The notes beneath the pieces are model-generated. The model worked only from the letters and a program-made list of their open reading frames with translations, searched no databases and was not told the origin of the DNA. The position numbers were made by a program, and so were the translations under genes. A stretch of DNA of 60,176 nt from a virus: the IMG/VR virus record IMGVR_UViG_3300030451_001785, positions 1 through 60,176 of that record. One strand, written 5' to 3'. Shown one piece after another: positions 23,430 to 60,176 of this stretch; within the stretch, counting starts at the first letter, position 1; the number at the start of each line of letters is the position of its first letter.

Positions 23430-23444
23430 CTGTTTTCTTTTCTA

Positions 23445-23452
23445 CAAAGATA
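23445..23452 (-). promoter_or_regulatory. Bacteroidetes-type -7 element for connector-tail unit
   Basis: TATCTTTG on the minus strand, 16 bp upstream of the ring gene and directly after the T-run of the terminator at 23453-23489. The juxtaposition suggests that transcription stops and restarts here. Confidence 0.55.
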
Positions 23453-23489
23453 ATGAAAAAAAAAGACCCCTTCATTTTTGAAGAGGTCT
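23453..23489 (-). terminator. Rho-independent terminator
   Basis: On the minus strand AGACCTCTTC pairs with GAAGGGGTCT (10 bp, one G-T wobble) around a short A-rich loop, followed by eight T. It lies downstream of the 93-aa gene (stop at 23516), separating the capsid unit from the connector unit. Confidence 0.82.
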
Positions 23490-24695: not shown

Positions 24696-26129
24696 TTATG
24701 CGTTGAATAAGAAGAAGTTGTTTGCTCCAAGAACACATACTGCTCTTTCAGAAAGGAAGTTAACCTCCATAGCATCTAAGCTAGAAGTTCTTGCTCCTCC
24801 TGCAGAACCTGTAATCCAAGTCTTGTAACGTCTGTCTTCAGTTTCTGAAGCTCTATATCTAACGTGCAAGAAAGGTCTTTTAGCATTCTTACCTAAGATT
24901 TGGTCATAAACAGATGTAGAACCTGCAGGAACTAATAGTCCACTTACTTTTCCACTACCTGCTACACTTGGTAAATCACCTCTCATAGTAGGGTCATTCA
25001 AGTATTTCCAATCAGACTTATAGAAGTCGTAACCTCTTCTAAATCCTGTGAATCCTAAATTAAGAGCCATCTCTTTCTCGTTGTCAAACAATCCGTAAGA
25101 TACTCCACCTGCAGCATTAGAAGATTGCTGAGATAACATATCGTCAATGTCAAAAGAGTAATCTCTATCAACAAATACAACATTCTCTTCAATCGCACCT
25201 TGCTTGTCAAGTCTTGAAATGATAGTATCCCACTCTGCTAAAGTAGTTGGGTTACCACCACCGTATACATTACCTCTTTGTCCAACTTCGTAGAAGATAC
25301 CTTTTGAACCTTTGTTACCAACAGGGGAAGTAGCTGCTACTGCTGCTACACCACCACCTGCTTCAGCAGGTACTGCTTCTATCATTGCAGTCTCCAAGTA
25401 ATCATCAAATCTAAGTCTAGTTTCGTGCTCAGACTTTAGATACCATAAGTATCCTGATGCTCCATTCTCAGTTGTAACTTCAATCCAACCAATTTGAGCC
25501 ATATCTGAACCTGATACTTCATACTTATCTTTTAAGATAATTGGAGAATTATCAAAAATGAAGTCGTCAGACTCAAGAGAGTTTGACATTCCTAAAGTTC
25601 CTTTTTTAAATTCAGAACCATAAATCCAAACAGAGAATATTTTCCCTGCTCCTGCTACAGGAATACCTGCTGCAGGATAAAATGCAACATCAAAAGTTTT
25701 GTTAGCGTAATCAACATCAGTTACGATTCCTTTTACAGAACCACCACCTGCGTTGTCACTAATAAATACAGTTTGTCCAATTCTAATAGCAATACTATTA
25801 GATGCACCAAACGCAGGGTTACCTGCATCGTTAACTGTAAATACTGCATCATCTGCATTGATTAATGCAGGAGTTGTTACATTAACATACTTTGTGTGTA
25901 ATCTACCTTGCTCTGCCCATTTAATAAGGTCAGAGTTTGAAGGCATTTCTGCTCCTACCATTCTTAGGAAGGAACTAATCGTTCTATTACCATATCTTTC
26001 AAATTCCTTTTCATAAGTATCAGGTAGATACTGATTCAAGAAATCGAAATTAGTAATATAGTTTGATTCCAACGGCACTCGTTGTGCACTTGGTTGTAAA
26101 TCAAAACCGGGTACTGCTTGTACGGGCAT
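24696..26129 (-). CDS. Major capsid protein, HK97-like
   Basis: A 477-aa protein. Near residues 45-80 it has the stretch ERYGNRTISSFLRMVGAEMP followed by SDLIKWAEQGRLH, as in crAss-like and Cellulophaga-type capsid proteins. A beta-barrel-like insert lies at about 90-170 and a Gly/Ala-rich loop at about 255-285. The order terminase, portal, scaffold, capsid supports the call. A hairpin terminator directly after the stop fits a highly expressed gene. It begins 28 bp after the scaffold gene. Confidence 0.87.
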   Translation of the reverse strand: MPVQAVPGFDLQPSAQRVPLESNYITNFDFLNQYLPDTYEKEFERYGNRTISSFLRMVGAEMPSNSDLIKWAEQGRLHTKYVNVTTPALINADDAVFTVNDAGNPAFGASNSIAIRIGQTVFISDNAGGGSVKGIVTDVDYANKTFDVAFYPAAGIPVAGAGKIFSVWIYGSEFKKGTLGMSNSLESDDFIFDNSPIILKDKYEVSGSDMAQIGWIEVTTENGASGYLWYLKSEHETRLRFDDYLETAMIEAVPAEAGGGVAAVAATSPVGNKGSKGIFYEVGQRGNVYGGGNPTTLAEWDTIISRLDKQGAIEENVVFVDRDYSFDIDDMLSQQSSNAAGGVSYGLFDNEKEMALNLGFTGFRRGYDFYKSDWKYLNDPTMRGDLPSVAGSGKVSGLLVPAGSTSVYDQILGKNAKRPFLHVRYRASETEDRRYKTWITGSAGGARTSSLDAMEVNFLSERAVCVLGANNFFLFNA

Positions 26130-43499: not shown

Positions 43500-43507
43500 A
43501 ATAAATG

Positions 43508-43526
43508 TATCTTTGCTACAAAGATA
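43508..43526. promoter_or_regulatory. Palindromic pair of opposed -7 elements
   Basis: TATCTTTG (43508-43515, plus strand), CTA, then CAAAGATA (43519-43526, which is TATCTTTG on the minus strand). The 19-bp sequence is a perfect-armed dyad. Each element would drive transcription through the other, towards the regulator at 43541 on one side and the late array at 43499 on the other, so only one polymerase can occupy it at a time. The dyad may also be an operator. Confidence 0.65.
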
Positions 43527-43540
43527 TTAAATTAAATCGA

Positions 43541-43969
43541 ATGCTTGATTACTTAAAATATTGGAGAGTAATCAGATACTTTATAAAATCTAAGTACGGA
43601 TTATCCCAAGCAGAACTAGAGATGCTTCTCTTCTTGAGAAGCGAAAAATATTTTTCAAAAGATTCGTTTGATGAATACAACGAACTAATCAGTTGGGATA
43701 AAAACCGATTTGAAAAACTAAGAAGTGAAGGTTGGATAGATGTCTTCCGAAAGAAGGAAGCTAATAGAAGAGTAGTGTACCAACTATCTTATAAAGCACA
43801 ACGTATGCTTACTACTCTTTATAAAAAACTAGAGGGTGAGGAAATACCTGAAAGTAAATCCTCCAACCCATTGTTTTTAAGAAACATATCTTATACTGAT
43901 AAAGTATATAGAAACTATATTAAAAAGCTTAATAAGTTTATTCGACAACAACGACATCCCTCTCAGTAA
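43541..43969 (+). CDS. Winged-helix (MarR-like) regulator candidate
   Basis: A 142-aa protein starting MLDYLKYWRVIR. Helical N-terminus (YFIKSKYGLSQAELEMLLFL), then SWDKNRFEKLRSEGWIDVFR and RRVVYQLSYKAQRMLTTLY, which match the recognition-helix and beta-wing order of MarR-type winged helices. Similar proteins sit next to head genes in Flavobacteriia phages. It is the only plus-strand gene between 2.5 and 46 kb and faces the late array across a palindromic promoter pair, which fits a switch regulator. A longer reading from 43505 would cover the promoter dyad and is less likely. Confidence 0.7.
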   Translation: MLDYLKYWRVIRYFIKSKYGLSQAELEMLLFLRSEKYFSKDSFDEYNELISWDKNRFEKLRSEGWIDVFRKKEANRRVVYQLSYKAQRMLTTLYKKLEGEEIPESKSSNPLFLRNISYTDKVYRNYIKKLNKFIRQQRHPSQ

Positions 43970-44195
43970 TAACAGTATACTGTTCACCATTTATTACCAT
44001 AGTATATCCTGCTCTACCATCATAGTAGATTATATTATCTGAATCAATTACGGAAACATCTGTACCGGGTTTTATTACTTTGCCTTTCTTATACCTAATA
44101 TCTTTTACATCATCGGCAGAAAGTAATAATCCTGATTCAGTTTTTATTTCTTCTTTGATTTGTTGTATTAATATATACTTACCTATTGGTTTCAT
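43938..44195 (-). CDS. groES: GroES-like co-chaperonin
   Basis: An 85-aa protein with the cpn10 layout: KPIGKYILIQQIKEEIKTES (first strand and Gln-Lys start of the mobile loop), SGLLLSADD (mobile loop, hydrophobic tripeptide LLL), KGKVIKPGTDV, NIIYYDGRAGYTMVINGEQY and VITERDVVVV. It is a little shorter than E. coli GroES (97 aa). It would cap the phage GroEL encoded two genes upstream. Its 3' end overlaps the convergent regulator gene by 32 bp. Confidence 0.85.
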   Translation of the reverse strand: MKPIGKYILIQQIKEEIKTESGLLLSADDVKDIRYKKGKVIKPGTDVSVIDSDNIIYYDGRAGYTMVINGEQYTVITERDVVVVE

Positions 44196-44347
44196 TTTAC
44201 TGTCTTTGCTGATAGAACTCTTTTGGAAGTTTCATCCTTTTGAAGTTTGGTTACAGAATAACCGTGTCTTCTTAAAAGATTAATTGCTTTGTTTAGTTTC
44301 TCTTCCTGCATTCTAAAGTGCTCGAATATTTGATTATGTATTGCCAT
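44192..44347 (-). CDS. Small hypothetical protein between chaperonin genes
   Basis: A 51-aa protein: MAIHNQIFEHFRMQEEKLNK, then AINLLRRHGYSVTKLQKDET. It forms two helices with a Lys/Arg-rich end. It lies between GroEL and GroES with a 4-bp ATGA overlap to GroES, so the three genes are one operon. Function unknown; a client-linked or regulatory role is only suggested by location. Confidence 0.6.
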   Translation of the reverse strand: MAIHNQIFEHFRMQEEKLNKAINLLRRHGYSVTKLQKDETSKRVLSAKTVK

Positions 44348-44362
44348 TTGATTATATTAAAA

Positions 44363-45952
44363 TTAATTCTTATCTTCGTAAGTTCGTGCCATTGTAACTA
44401 TAGCATTGGTTGATAGTAATGTAACTGCAACTGAAACGGCATTCTGTAATGCACACTTAGTTACCTTCAATGGGTCAATGATTCCCATTTCATACATACA
44501 TCCAAACTTATCATTCTTTACATCGTATCCACCGGAGAATACATCAGTGTCTTTAAAGACACCATTATCATATTCCTCTCCTGCGTTTTCCCATATTTGT
44601 AATAGTGGTGCTTGTAAAGCTTCAGCTAAAATATTTATGTGCTTTTGTTTTTTATCTTCTTCACTATAGTCAAGTGATTCTCTAAATAAAGCAAGACCAC
44701 CTCCCGGAAGTATACCTTCTTCTAAGGCAGAACGCACTGCACAGACTGCATCATCAACACGGTCATACAGTTCCTTCTGTTCCAAATCAGTATTACCTCC
44801 TACATAGATGACACCCACACCTCCTGTTAAAGAGGCAATCCTACTTAGTATAAAATCTTTATCTGCTTTTAGTTTTGCATTCTTTGCAGCTTCTTTTAAT
44901 TGTGCAACTCTTTCTTTTATTACATCTGCATTATTGTTATCCTCTTTAATGATAACAGTTGAGTCACGACCAACTATCACCTTGGAACAATGACCCAAAT
45001 CGTTTTCTGTTATCAAACTCAAATCATCACCGGTCTTCTCAGAAAAGTAAGTTGCACCAACACTCACTGCTATGTCCTGCATAAGTTCGTGTTGCTTATA
45101 CCCAAAGGAAGGTGGACCAATAGTGCAAAGCTTGAGATTGCTTTTCATCACGTTGGCAGCTAATGTGTTTACGACATTGGATGAGGTTGGTGCTATGATT
45201 AATAATTTTTTTCCACCATTTATAATTGGCTTCAATACATTTTCAATTTGTAATATATTTTCAATAGGAGCATCGCTAACTAAAATCTGACAGTCTTCTA
45301 AAATACACTCGTCTTTCTTTTGGTCATTAATAAATAGTGGAGATTCAAACCCTCTATCTATTTTCAAACCGTTAGTGGTTTCAAAATAAGTTTCAGAGTT
45401 TTGAGATTTATCTACTGCAACGATTCCGTCACGACCTACCTTACGGTAAACCTTTGCGATTATATCGCCTAGGTAAGAATCATTATTAGCAGATATAGTA
45501 GCAACATCTTTTAGAGTTTTACTATTTACTTTTCTTGCTTTCTTCTTTAGTCTATCAACTATGCAAGTTGTTTCGTGTACAAGGTCTCTAAGTACCTGTG
45601 TCTTATTCTCGTCTAAATCTCTACCTGCATTGACTAAAGCTTCTGTCAATACTATTGCAGTAGTTGTTCCGTCACCGGCTTGAGTAGCAGTTCTATCTGC
45701 TGCCTCTTTCATAATTCTTACTGCTAAGTTTTCTGTGGGGTCAATAAGTGAAACTGACTTTGCTACAGTAACTCCGTCTTTGGTTACTGTGATTCCGTGA
45801 GAGTGTTGTGGGGATTCTATTAATACTGTTTGTCCTGATGGTCCGAGTGTAGACTTAACTGCTTTGGAAATCTTTTCAATTCCTTTGTAAAGTTTATCTC
45901 TACCTTCTTCTGCAAACAATAGGTTCTTTGGGGTGTATCCTATTTCTGACAT
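44363..45952 (-). CDS. groEL: Phage-encoded GroEL (group I chaperonin)
   Basis: A 529-aa protein. Conserved ATPase features are STLGPSGQTVLIESP, TVTKDGVTVAKS (equivalent of E. coli Asp52), AGDGTTTAIVLTEALV (GDGTTT), TGGVGVIYVGG, DDAVCAVRSALEEGILPGGG (Asp398 equivalent) and GIIDPLKVTKCALQNAVSVA. The apical domain (about 190-370) is divergent but complete. The C-terminal Gly-Gly-Met tail of bacterial GroEL is absent. Phage chaperonins (for example in Pseudomonas phage EL) fold phage proteins. The palindrome at 44547 encodes VFKDT near residue 465, in a surface-loop region. A TATATTTG promoter with ATTG at -33 lies upstream. Confidence 0.95.
   Translation of the reverse strand: MSEIGYTPKNLLFAEEGRDKLYKGIEKISKAVKSTLGPSGQTVLIESPQHSHGITVTKDGVTVAKSVSLIDPTENLAVRIMKEAADRTATQAGDGTTTAIVLTEALVNAGRDLDENKTQVLRDLVHETTCIVDRLKKKARKVNSKTLKDVATISANNDSYLGDIIAKVYRKVGRDGIVAVDKSQNSETYFETTNGLKIDRGFESPLFINDQKKDECILEDCQILVSDAPIENILQIENVLKPIINGGKKLLIIAPTSSNVVNTLAANVMKSNLKLCTIGPPSFGYKQHELMQDIAVSVGATYFSEKTGDDLSLITENDLGHCSKVIVGRDSTVIIKEDNNNADVIKERVAQLKEAAKNAKLKADKDFILSRIASLTGGVGVIYVGGNTDLEQKELYDRVDDAVCAVRSALEEGILPGGGLALFRESLDYSEEDKKQKHINILAEALQAPLLQIWENAGEEYDNGVFKDTDVFSGGYDVKNDKFGCMYEMGIIDPLKVTKCALQNAVSVAVTLLSTNAIVTMARTYEDKN
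44547..44562. repeat. Dispersed palindrome copy (TTTAAA centre) in groEL
   Basis: GTGTCTTTAAAGACAC, a fully symmetrical copy. In frame it encodes V-F-K-D-T in a variable loop of the equatorial domain of the phage GroEL, where bacterial homologues differ in length. Confidence 0.95.
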
Positions 45953-45974: not shown

Positions 45975-46005
45975 CAAATATACAAATTAAAAATAAAACG
46001 ACAAT
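45975..46005 (-). promoter_or_regulatory. Promoter of chaperonin operon
   Basis: On the minus strand ATTG (46005-46002), 19 bp, then TATATTTG (45982-45975), 22 bp upstream of the groEL ATG. This is close to the Bacteroidetes -33 TTTG / -7 TAnnTTTG consensus and is one of the few minus-strand promoters here with a recognisable -33 element. Confidence 0.65.
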
Positions 46006-46218: not shown

Positions 46219-46290
46219 GCACCCATAGTTTAACGGATAAAACAAATCTCTTCTAAAGATTAAATCTAGGTTCGATTCCTAGTGGGTGTA
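46219..46290 (+). tRNA. tRNA-Arg (UCU)
   Basis: 72 nt. The acceptor GCACCCA pairs with TGGGTGT, the T arm is CTAGG-TTCGATT-CCTAG, and the anticodon stem AATCT/AGATT holds the loop CTTCTAA, giving anticodon UCU (reads AGA). The discriminator base is A and CCA is not encoded. It favours AGA codons, which are frequent in this AT-rich genome. Confidence 0.93.
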
Positions 46291-46294
46291 CTAT

Positions 46295-46379
46295 GTCCTA
46301 TTGGTGAAATTGGTAAACACAACAGACTTAAAATCTGTCGAGCAGTATGCTCTTGTTGGTTCGAGTCCAACATAGGACA
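46295..46379 (+). tRNA. tRNA-Leu (UAA)
   Basis: 85 nt with a long variable arm (CGAGCAGTATGCTCT), as expected for Leu. The acceptor GTCCTAT pairs with ATAGGAC, the anticodon stem ACAGA/TCTGT holds the loop CTTAAAA (anticodon UAA, reads TTA), the T arm is GTTGG-TTCGAGT-CCAAC, and the discriminator is A. Confidence 0.93.
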
Positions 46380-46382
46380 CTA

Positions 46383-46456
46383 CCTCGTTTAACTCAGTTG
46401 GTTAGAGTAGCATCCTTATACGATGAAGGTCGTAGGTTCAAGTCCTACAACGAGGA
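46383..46456 (+). tRNA. tRNA-Ile (UAU)
   Basis: 74 nt. The acceptor CCTCGTT pairs with AACGAGG, the anticodon loop CTTATAC gives UAU (reads ATA), the T arm is GTAGG-TTCAAGT-CCTAC, and the discriminator is A. A direct UAU anticodon avoids the need for lysidine modification of CAU. The first pair of the anticodon stem is G-A, a small imperfection. Confidence 0.88.
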
Positions 46457-46489
46457 CAAAAAAAAAGAGAGGTAAATGACAACCTCTCT
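46457..46489 (-). terminator. Rho-independent terminator for 67-aa gene
   Basis: On the minus strand AGAGAGGT pairs with ACCTCTCT around a TGTCATTT loop, followed by nine or ten T, after the 67-aa gene. On the plus strand the same hairpin directly follows the last tRNA and may protect or end that transcript. Confidence 0.82.
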
Positions 46490-46719: not shown

Positions 46720-46736
46720 AACAAATTCTTTTGCTA

Positions 46737-46744
46737 CAAAGATA
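46737..46744 (-). promoter_or_regulatory. Bacteroidetes-type -7 element
   Basis: TATCTTTG on the minus strand, 17 bp upstream of the 67-aa gene. No clear -33 element. Confidence 0.5.
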
Positions 46745-46770
46745 GTAAAAATTTATTAAGTATATGCACT

Positions 46771-50380: not shown

Positions 50381-51460
50381 ATGTGCGTTATTATTATAAA
50401 GCAAAAAGACAATGTAATGTCGAAAGAGGTAGCCAAAACCTCATCAAGAATTAATCCTCACGGATTAGGAATAATTTGGTTAGATACTTTTGAAGTCGAG
50501 TATCACAAATCAAAAGACTATCACAAGCTACTAACAAAGAGACCATTCATTGCTCACTTTCGTTATGCTACCAAAGGTAAAATCAACAGAGCCAACACGC
50601 ATCCATTTGTGTGTGGTAACAACAAGGATGAATACCTTATGCACAATGGAACAATACAAGGTATGGGCAACAAAGAATGTTGCGATAGCAAGATGTTAGC
50701 CAACAAGCTTGGAACAATCAATCGTATGCATTGGAAAAAAGAGTTAGAACAATACGACTCAAGGTTTGTGTCGGTCAATGTTCGCACTCGTTCATTCCAA
50801 ATCTACAACAGGAATCTCTATACTTACAGGGATGGCATTTGGTATTCAAAAGCCAATGTATTACAGGACAATCTTATCGCAGTGTATGGTACACTAAAGA
50901 AAGGTTATGGTAATTACTATGCGTATCTAACAAACGCAAAGCACCTTGGTCGGGGAACAACTAAAGACAAATATCCTTTGGTTGTTTCGGGTCTACCATA
51001 TTTGGTGGATGAAAAAGGCAGAGGTCACAATGTGGTTGTTGATGTGTTCAAAGTATCTGATGCACAACTACAAAGGGTTGACCAACTTGAAGGTCATCCT
51101 CGTTGGTACAAGCGAAAGCAAATAGATATCAAACTAAAGAATCGTACCTTGAAGTGTTGGATATATTTCAATCCACAAGTAATCACAAGCACGACACAAC
51201 TGCACAGGTCTTTTGAAAGAACTGCAAGACCAACGCAACAGGTGTTTACATTCCAAGATGTTGAGCCAACTTATGATACCACAGAGTTTCACGAGGCAAT
51301 AGATATTGGTTGGGATGATAACGACTTTCCAACAGACCAAACACCAACTTGTATTGACTGCTTTAATGACTTGGAACACGATGCGTTCCACAACTACTAC
51401 TGCTCATCCTGTGGTGGTTGGTTTAAGGAAGATGAAGTGTTGAGGTTTAACGAAGAATAA
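50381..51460 (+). CDS. Class-II glutamine amidotransferase / gamma-glutamyl cyclotransferase / zinc-ribbon fusion
   Basis: A 359-aa protein with three parts. Residues 1-140: Ntn glutamine amidotransferase, with Cys2 directly after Met (MCVIIIKQKD), HFRYATKGKINRANTHPFV and MHNGTIQG. Residues 163-270: AIG2/GGCT-like cyclotransferase, with YGTLKKGYGN (169-178), SGLPYLV, VDVFKVSD and Glu237 in DQLEGHPRW, the catalytic-acid position. Residues 324-344: Cys4 zinc ribbon (CIDC and CSSC). The amidotransferase would supply ammonia or move glutamyl groups; the cyclotransferase releases gamma-glutamyl groups as 5-oxoproline. With the amidoligase at 47906 this suggests a cycle of amide/gamma-glutamyl modification and removal. 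A strong promoter precedes it. Confidence 0.88.
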   Translation: MCVIIIKQKDNVMSKEVAKTSSRINPHGLGIIWLDTFEVEYHKSKDYHKLLTKRPFIAHFRYATKGKINRANTHPFVCGNNKDEYLMHNGTIQGMGNKECCDSKMLANKLGTINRMHWKKELEQYDSRFVSVNVRTRSFQIYNRNLYTYRDGIWYSKANVLQDNLIAVYGTLKKGYGNYYAYLTNAKHLGRGTTKDKYPLVVSGLPYLVDEKGRGHNVVVDVFKVSDAQLQRVDQLEGHPRWYKRKQIDIKLKNRTLKCWIYFNPQVITSTTQLHRSFERTARPTQQVFTFQDVEPTYDTTEFHEAIDIGWDDNDFPTDQTPTCIDCFNDLEHDAFHNYYCSSCGGWFKEDEVLRFNEE

Positions 51461-58986: not shown

Positions 58987-60176
58987 AAAGAACGGCAGGG
59001 TACACAGACAAAATGATGTACGAACAGTGTAAACTTTTCTATGATATAATTTTTAGAACTGAAAAGGTAAAGGTTGGAAGAGGCAAGAACGCAAAGTTTG
59101 TAGACCAAAGAGTATACGGTGCAGAAGAAGAAGTAGAACGCAGAGCAATTGAGAGTCTTGAATATTATAAAAAGAAAATGGAGAACCCTAGTAAAATAAA
59201 ATACAGAGAATACCAAAAGAAAATTATAGTACAGGGTGCAGAAAGTATTTTGAAAAATGATTTTCTATACCTTACAATGGAGGTGCGAACCGGTAAAACT
59301 TTAACGAGTTTAGGTATCGCAAGACTGCTGAACCGTAAGAAAGTTTTATTCATCACAAAGAAAAAAGCTATTAGCAGCATAGAAGCTGATTACGAAATGC
59401 TCAATCCTGATTATGATTTAGTAGTAATAAACTACGAATCATTACATAAAATATCAGACAGAGACTTTGACTTTATAATATTGGATGAAGCACACAGTAT
59501 GGGTGCATTTCCAAAACCAAGTAAGAGAGCCAAGCAAGTAAAAGATTTATTGAGAACCTGCGATGCTCAAGTAATTTTGTTATCAGGAACACCAACACCT
59601 GAATCATACAGTCAGATGTATCATCAAGTGTATGGAATAAAAAACAATCCGTTCAAAGAATATATTAACTTCTACAAGTTTGCTAAAAAATATGTGAAAG
59701 TAAAACAACAAAAGATAAATGGTTTGTATATAAATAATTATCACGATGGACTTCAGTCTATCATAGATGATATGAAACCACATATAATATCTTACTCACA
59801 AAAAGAAGCAGGGTTTAAAGTAGACACAAGGGAGCACACGCTTGAGGTTGAAATGAAACCTATCACCTATCAACTCACCAAGAAACTTCAAAAGGATTTA
59901 GTGGTTGAGGGTAAAGAAGAAATAATTTTGGGTGACACTCCTGTAAAACTTATGATGAAGCTTCATCAATTATACTCAGGTACAATAAAGTTTGAGTCAG
60001 GAAACTCTACAGTTATTGACCACAGTAAAGCACAGTACATCTACGATAATTTTTGTACACAAAAAATTGGAATCTTTTATAAGTTCAAAGAAGAACTCAA
60101 AGCACTTAAAGAAATATATGGAGACCAATTATGTACAGACCTTAGTGTCTTTGAAGACACTGATAAAAGTATAGCA
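58938..60176 (+). CDS. DEAH-box SF2 helicase, N-terminal part (continues at base 1)
   Basis: 413 codons open to the window end; the rest is at 142-390, giving about 495 aa. The first lobe shows an N-terminal helical segment, Walker A MEVRTGKTLTS (residues 114-124, with VRTGKT replacing the usual GxGKT), IILDEAHSMG (DEAH at 183-186) and LSGTPTPES (motif III, from 215). The later RecA lobe is in the left end. SNF2/UvsW-like enzymes remodel forks and recombination intermediates. Start at 58938 lies within the preceding small gene. Confidence 0.9.
   Translation, partial: MHSDKELHQGKTDYVIERTAGYTDKMMYEQCKLFYDIIFRTEKVKVGRGKNAKFVDQRVYGAEEEVERRAIESLEYYKKKMENPSKIKYREYQKKIIVQGAESILKNDFLYLTMEVRTGKTLTSLGIARLLNRKKVLFITKKKAISSIEADYEMLNPDYDLVVINYESLHKISDRDFDFIILDEAHSMGAFPKPSKRAKQVKDLLRTCDAQVILLSGTPTPESYSQMYHQVYGIKNNPFKEYINFYKFAKKYVKVKQQKINGLYINNYHDGLQSIIDDMKPHIISYSQKEAGFKVDTREHTLEVEMKPITYQLTKKLQKDLVVEGKEEIILGDTPVKLMMKLHQLYSGTIKFESGNSTVIDHSKAQYIYDNFCTQKIGIFYKFKEELKALKEIYGDQLCTDLSVFEDTDKSIA
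60036..60176. repeat. Right copy of terminal redundancy
   Basis: Repeats bases 1-141 with two silent differences. It shows circular closure of the genome. Confidence 0.93.
60145..60160. repeat. Palindrome copy, same locus as 110-125
   Basis: GTGTCTTTGAAGACAC within the redundant end; a second sight of one genomic copy. Confidence 0.95.

Follow-up and report, generated by a model that had tools for sequence, protein, structure and literature searches.

A phage GroEL–GroES operon with eroded ring–ring contact sites: a putative self-contained folding cage, possibly single-ring

The viral DNA analysed here (the window, 60,176 bases at its full length) encodes a group I chaperonin together with a lid of its own. 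As judged from sequence comparison, the two proteins probably form a self-contained folding cage devoted to proteins of the phage, possibly working as a single ring. The genes belong to a single minus-strand operon (43938–45952), in the order groEL, an open reading frame (ORF) of 51 codons, and groES. Such operons are a core feature of a phage lineage that appears to infect Bacteroidota, and the surface by which two GroEL rings usually meet has drifted in this lineage.

The chaperonin operon and its products

The window ends in a 141-bp direct terminal repeat (1–141 and 60036–60176, 99% identical), so that the record is probably a complete genome. The operon and its surroundings comprise the following features:

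44363–45952, minus strand: groEL, large subunit of a group I chaperonin, 529 residues, without a GGM tail (Pfam and PHROG profiles, residue alignment, fold match to GroEL/Hsp60)
44192–44347, minus strand: 51-residue ORF in the groEL–groES slot, of a family with the pattern M-x-I-[HYD]-N-Q-I-F...AI-x-LL...GY
43938–44195, minus strand: groES, 85-residue co-chaperonin (lid), with mobile loop KTESGLLLSADD and the roof loop missing (Pfam and PHROG profiles, AlphaFold2, fold matches, loop lengths)
45975–45982, minus strand: TATATTTG, Bacteroidota-type −7 promoter element (TAnnTTTG), its position conserved in relatives
46002–46004, minus strand: TTG, candidate −33 element, located 19 nt ahead of the −7 element
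43505–43969, plus strand: gene for a 154-residue protein, convergent with groES and overlapping it; PHROG 17028 (unknown function)
46219–46457, plus strand: tRNA-Arg, tRNA-Leu and tRNA-Ile, divergent from the chaperonin operon

The initial annotation had read this region as a complete GroEL–GroES operon with intact ATPase residues, and profile searches bear this out for both genes. GroEL matches Pfam Cpn60_TCP1 (PF00118) with 178 bits (E 3e-52) over profile positions 1–488 of 490, and PHROG 5725 'chaperonin groEL' with 449 bits. Its alignment with E. coli GroEL spans the entire protein, at 36% identity. The residues of the ATP site (D52, D87, T89–T91, D398 and D495 in E. coli numbering) are all kept; across 67 distinct phage relatives the site is near-invariant, with a few conservative changes only. 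With its Cpn60 profile, these residues and a partner GroES in the same operon, the protein is a group I chaperonin (GroEL/Cpn60). Its AlphaFold2 model matches GroEL/Hsp60 folds with a mean pLDDT of 74 and a TM of about 0.7, values that led us to make all residue-level claims without it.

The lid is as easily recognized. It scores 40.6 bits against Pfam Cpn10 (PF00166, cut-off 21.1) and matches PHROG 3188 'co-chaperonin GroES'. The solved folds closest to its AlphaFold2 model (pLDDT 91.6) are those of GroES/Cpn10, with a Z of 11.8 for Cpn10 from T. thermophilus, and T4 gp31 follows with a Z of 8.6. Profile, beta-barrel fold and a mobile loop, SGLLLS, with its hydrophobic tripeptide, all place it in the GroES/Cpn10 family. 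A deposited viral GroES of 85 residues (A0A221S3G2), with the same lid length and fold, is 55% identical to it.

Two segments set the phage lids apart: the roof counts 21 residues in all 61 of them versus 24–30 in bacteria, and the mobile-loop segment counts 26 versus 24. Absence of the roof loop and a longer mobile loop are traits of the T4 gp31 type, and in gp31 they are credited with making room for the capsid protein (PMC6318259). The resemblance goes with an identity of 10% only, and gp31 works with the GroEL of its host whereas the present phage supplies the ring as well. One could nevertheless imagine that the phage GroES is mainly a gp31-like replacement lid for host GroEL, its own GroEL being secondary or a decoy. 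We consider this rather unlikely: the phage GroEL is full length, its catalytic residues hardly vary in the family, it travels with the lid, and its lid-binding groove (see below) is fixed in a form unlike that of the host.

Promoter and host

A promoter of its own had also been proposed for the operon, and it finds support in a Bacteroidota-type element. The octamer TATATTTG (45982–45975), 30 nt before the ATG of groEL and with TTG 19 nt further up, fits TAnnTTTG, which we take to be the −7 element of Bacteroidota promoters. Of 65 relatives, 63 have this motif in the 150 nt that precede groEL, usually 24–37 nt ahead of the ATG, versus 8.5% of random 150-nt windows. A scan of the window for sigma-70 promoters gave 14 matches for 12.9 expected, no excess over shuffles. 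As the full pattern TTG-N17-23-TAnnTTTG is not enriched in the window either (12 occurrences, 13.3 in shuffles), it is the conserved position upstream of groEL that supports the promoter.

The relatives of the terminase in GenBank belong almost all to phages of Flavobacterium, Cellulophaga, Tenacibaculum and Maribacter. Taken with the promoter element, this makes a Bacteroidota host a well-supported prediction. Elsewhere in the window, a 20-nt repeat occurs in three similar copies (23438–23457, 43512–43531 and 46730–46749) upstream of minus-strand genes, two of them containing TATCTTTGTAG on the minus strand; these copies are probably strong promoters of the Bacteroidota type.

A core gene pair of a widespread phage lineage

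Phage GroEL had been presented at the outset as rare, and the presence of both partners in a podovirus-like genome of 60 kb as unusual. Neither view survives comparison with the databases. The window GroEL is matched by 252 GenBank phage records, and among viral contigs 416 of 421 candidate stretches, a lower bound, encode relatives, the best 80 being 65–77% identical. Both genes are found in MW202828 (60,850 bp) and in 68 records of about 60 kb from the elemo podoviruses of Flavobacterium, all of them already in GenBank. Where relatives were examined, groES lies within about 1 kb downstream of groEL in 85 of 86. Relatives were also chosen by their terminase, which avoids the bias of a search based on groEL itself: all seven of those with at least 49 kb carry groEL and groES, hence a pair that is core to the lineage. 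Four further records selected in this way are devoid of groEL; none of them exceeds 47.5 kb, and they are probably fragments.

The operon thus belongs to the known viral group I chaperonins with lids, in a genome that differs from theirs. Marine et al. (2017, ISME J; cited in PMC5934643) reportedly described the group I chaperonins of virioplankton, GroEL together with a cognate GroES, as both common and divergent. In the literature that we covered, Marine et al. 2017 lying outside it, we found no earlier account of an analysis of ring interface, groove and cargo slot. The closest known genomes are MW202828, with a terminase 75% identical to that of the window, and the Flavobacterium Elemovirus phages (47%); they are alike in size and in placing groEL first, but their GroEL is only 60% and 38% identical, respectively, and the 51-residue gene is missing from their slot. 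Both genes have been reported in the Maribacter phage Panino (PMC11590407), GroEL is carried by 36 marine genomes of a putative group of Flavobacteriaceae phages (PMC5332604), and the introduction of a study on the phage EL chaperonin mentions that some phages possess homologues of both GroEL and GroES (PMC7185714).

A phage lineage rather than host DNA

A homologous groES–groEL operon exists in bacteria, and four contigs of a genome collection match the phage GroEL, as might be expected if the operon were host contamination or a recent capture from a host. This explanation is scarcely tenable. In a maximum-likelihood tree with 33 bacterial sequences (32 mostly from Bacteroidota, plus E. coli), the window GroEL, its relatives and MW202828 make up one branch apart from the bacterial sequences, so that the phylogenetic check proposed at first, once run, returned no placement within a host genus. 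The elemo GroEL is placed elsewhere in this tree, off the window branch. Besides the low identity to E. coli GroEL, the gene order, groEL first, is the reverse of that of E. coli, and the pair recurs in many phage genomes that are circular or of about 60 kb. As for the four contigs, all are small pieces of metagenome-assembled genomes (MAGs) showing the phage groEL–groES layout, and two of the MAGs hold a separate, normal GroEL besides; they are likely to be phage fragments that fell into bins. Their labels (L084–L087) read Aliivibrio, Chthoniobacterales, TMED88 and Bacteroidetes, and eight GroEL matches in the Aliivibrio MAG suggest mixed bins.

Chaperonins of the phages EL, OBP and AR9 are likewise phage-encoded and group I-like, and single rings have been reported for them. 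The EL-like and AR9 sequences share only 25–26% identity with the window GroEL and stand on separate, very long branches, with which it does not group in the tree, the placement of such branches being unsure. Furthermore, the EL chaperonin does not use the GroES of E. coli (PMC7185714), whereas the present operon supplies a GroES.

A variable slot between groEL and groES

The 51-residue ORF begins 15 nt past groEL and overlaps the start of groES by 4 nt. It occupies a slot (44192–44362 in the window) at the junction between groEL and groES, the content of which varies: among 86 loci that carry both genes, these abut (16 nt or less) in about 25, and they are separated by 51–1013 nt with varied small ORFs in the others. 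Relatives house there a 2OG-Fe(II) oxygenase, an HNH endonuclease, zinc-ribbon-like or membrane-like proteins, or members of the 51-residue family. The protein itself has no credible match in Pfam, PHROGs or the GenBank phages; homologues in other phages indicate that it is a real gene. Its family comprises 47 viral loci, at most 20 of which are next to groEL: nine of these within 80 nt of the groEL stop, the others further along the slot. At least 27 of the 47 have no groEL in the flanks that were fetched (up to 3 kb).

The extra small gene singled out by the initial annotation is therefore real and does sit in the operon, but it is not a fixed partner of the chaperonin: the slot varies, and most homologues were found without groEL in the fetched flanks. 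That it should be a third part of the chaperonin, helping assembly or serving as an adaptor, might be entertained from its place inside the operon, kept in several relatives. The absence of the gene from most relatives, the abutting loci and the homologues with no groEL in those flanks make this very improbable. We read the 51-residue protein as probable cargo of this variable slot, unrelated to the chaperonin.

On the other side of groES, the 154-residue gene is convergent with it, overlapping or adjoining, in 81 of the 86 loci with a hit. Its homologue in MW202828 carries the annotation 'repressor protein'. Read from these loci, the constant unit of the lineage is groEL, the slot and groES, together with the convergent gene.

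A separate observation concerns a perfect 16-bp palindrome, GTGTCTTNNAAGACAC, present in 15 copies in the window where 0.04 would be expected. The copies lie at the following positions:

110, 8033, 24661, 31772, 44547, 46995, 47873, 48862, 49753, 50344, 51843, 53364, 54796, 56116, 60145: GTGTCTTNNAAGACAC

They are mostly intergenic, and their centre, CA or TA, follows the direction of transcription. The same palindrome is found in 11 of 16 related phage records searched, with 5–15 copies each, and other relatives have a different one: GTGTCGTT/AACGACAC 14 times in MW202828, TTCCGAC/GTCGGAA seven times in another relative (L031). As RNA, GTGTCTTNNAAGACAC forms a hairpin whose loop is UCAA, with long extra stems in places. 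It is a candidate for a dispersed operator or a transcript hairpin, and the 154-residue protein may be its putative binding partner. In the same genome, a protein of 359 residues (50381–51460) combines a weak match to class II glutamine amidotransferases with a gamma-glutamyl cyclotransferase (GGACT) domain.

Ring–ring contacts, lid groove and the number of rings

A GGM-rich C-terminal tail is typical of group I chaperonins, while not strictly defining them. The phage proteins stop 4–9 residues past E. coli position 525, and no such tail is present in any of the 67 distinct relatives. The absence noted in the initial annotation is thus confirmed, but the idea that it points to a single-ring mode does not follow: a loss common to the whole family tells nothing of ring number. 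It is the ring–ring contact sites that lend some support to the single-ring idea.

For three sets of sites we set the 67 phage relatives against 32 GroELs of cellular origin, almost all from Bacteroidota. At ring–ring sites the mean entropy is 2.86 in phages versus 0.99 in Bacteroidota (0.94 versus 0.65 for all sites), values that in gapped loops are partly inflated by alignment, where loop lengths vary too. Because two alignments place gaps differently at positions 105–110 and 430–467, we give loop lengths beside entropy: the loops bearing the contacts span 16–21, 23–38 and 26–37 residues in phages, for 19, 30–31 and 31–32 in bacteria. At the inter-ring positions K105, A109, R452, E461, S463 and V464, the window GroEL has D, E, L, E, D and N in the panel alignment. 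The canonical contacts are not kept in this protein and are eroded across the 67 relatives: K105, present in 32 of 32 Bacteroidota GroELs, is found in 7 of 67, while A109, R452 and E461 are kept in 30, 27 and 29 of the 32 Bacteroidota sequences. Such contacts are not strictly required of group I chaperonins, since mitochondrial Hsp60 (mtHsp60) is also devoid of the salt bridges.

The groove that accommodates GroES and substrates followed another course. It is recoded at nine positions (Y203L, R231L, L234E, E238K, A241I, A260N, V263A, V264A and R268K), with a mean entropy of 0.23 in phages and 0.10 in Bacteroidota: its residues are fixed in the phage lineage, yet unlike the bacterial ones. The change L234E need not mean weaker binding, as it could instead be a co-adaptation to the lid of the phage.

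What could this combination mean? An engineered single-ring GroEL of E. coli is arrested unless its affinity for GroES is lowered, and lower lid affinity has been linked to single-ring function in human Hsp60–Hsp10 and in GroEL-SR (PMC5575113). Like the phage protein, human mitochondrial Hsp60–Hsp10 and GroEL-SR lack the inter-ring salt bridges; for the window, by contrast, the ring state is a prediction from sequence, and the GroEL groove itself is changed. Lost ring contacts together with an altered groove would fit cycling by one ring, in the way of the engineered protein. We put forward, tentatively, that the phage has a natural single-ring GroEL with a roofless GroES, the ring interface having been lost together with the rebuilding of a weaker lid groove.

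Eroded contacts of the GroEL type are no proof of a single ring, however, since the chaperonin of phage EL keeps a double ring by way of different, non-canonical one-to-one contacts (PMC7185714). The human mtHsp60 also forms double rings while lacking the two salt bridges of GroEL (PMC5575113; PMC7174398). An ordinary double-ring GroEL, held by an interface of different residues as in phage EL, with only lid and clients being special, is accordingly a possible reading, though one of which we are far from convinced: had a different interface been conserved, conserved positions should be seen on the face in question, and the 12 ring–ring sites tested fall between the 79th and the 99th percentile of variability within the phage family.

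A proposed mode of action

Within the self-contained cage that we favour, a heptameric ring of the phage GroEL would capture an unfolded phage protein, and the binding of ATP would bring the cognate GroES as a lid. The client would then fold inside the closed chamber until hydrolysis of ATP sets it free. The pair presumably works with itself, not with host partners. Its gp31-like lid may offer more room for a large client, and our guess is a virion structural protein of 477 residues (24696–26129). With the canonical ring–ring contacts eroded, the machine would be either a single ring, aided by a weaker lid groove, or a ring assembly with an interface unlike that of GroEL.

Significance

Group I chaperonins are usually explained by two rings signalling to each other. 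If the ring–ring surface drifts in a family where the ATP site and the lid stay, nature provides a test of whether one ring suffices, and a large lineage of aquatic phages offers many sequence variants to compare on this question. Two points retain our interest here, a natural, possibly single-ring GroEL–GroES pair that lends itself to experiment, and a cargo slot inside its operon. More generally, chaperonin operons are a fixed part of a common lineage of Bacteroidota phages, and not a curiosity of jumbo phages.
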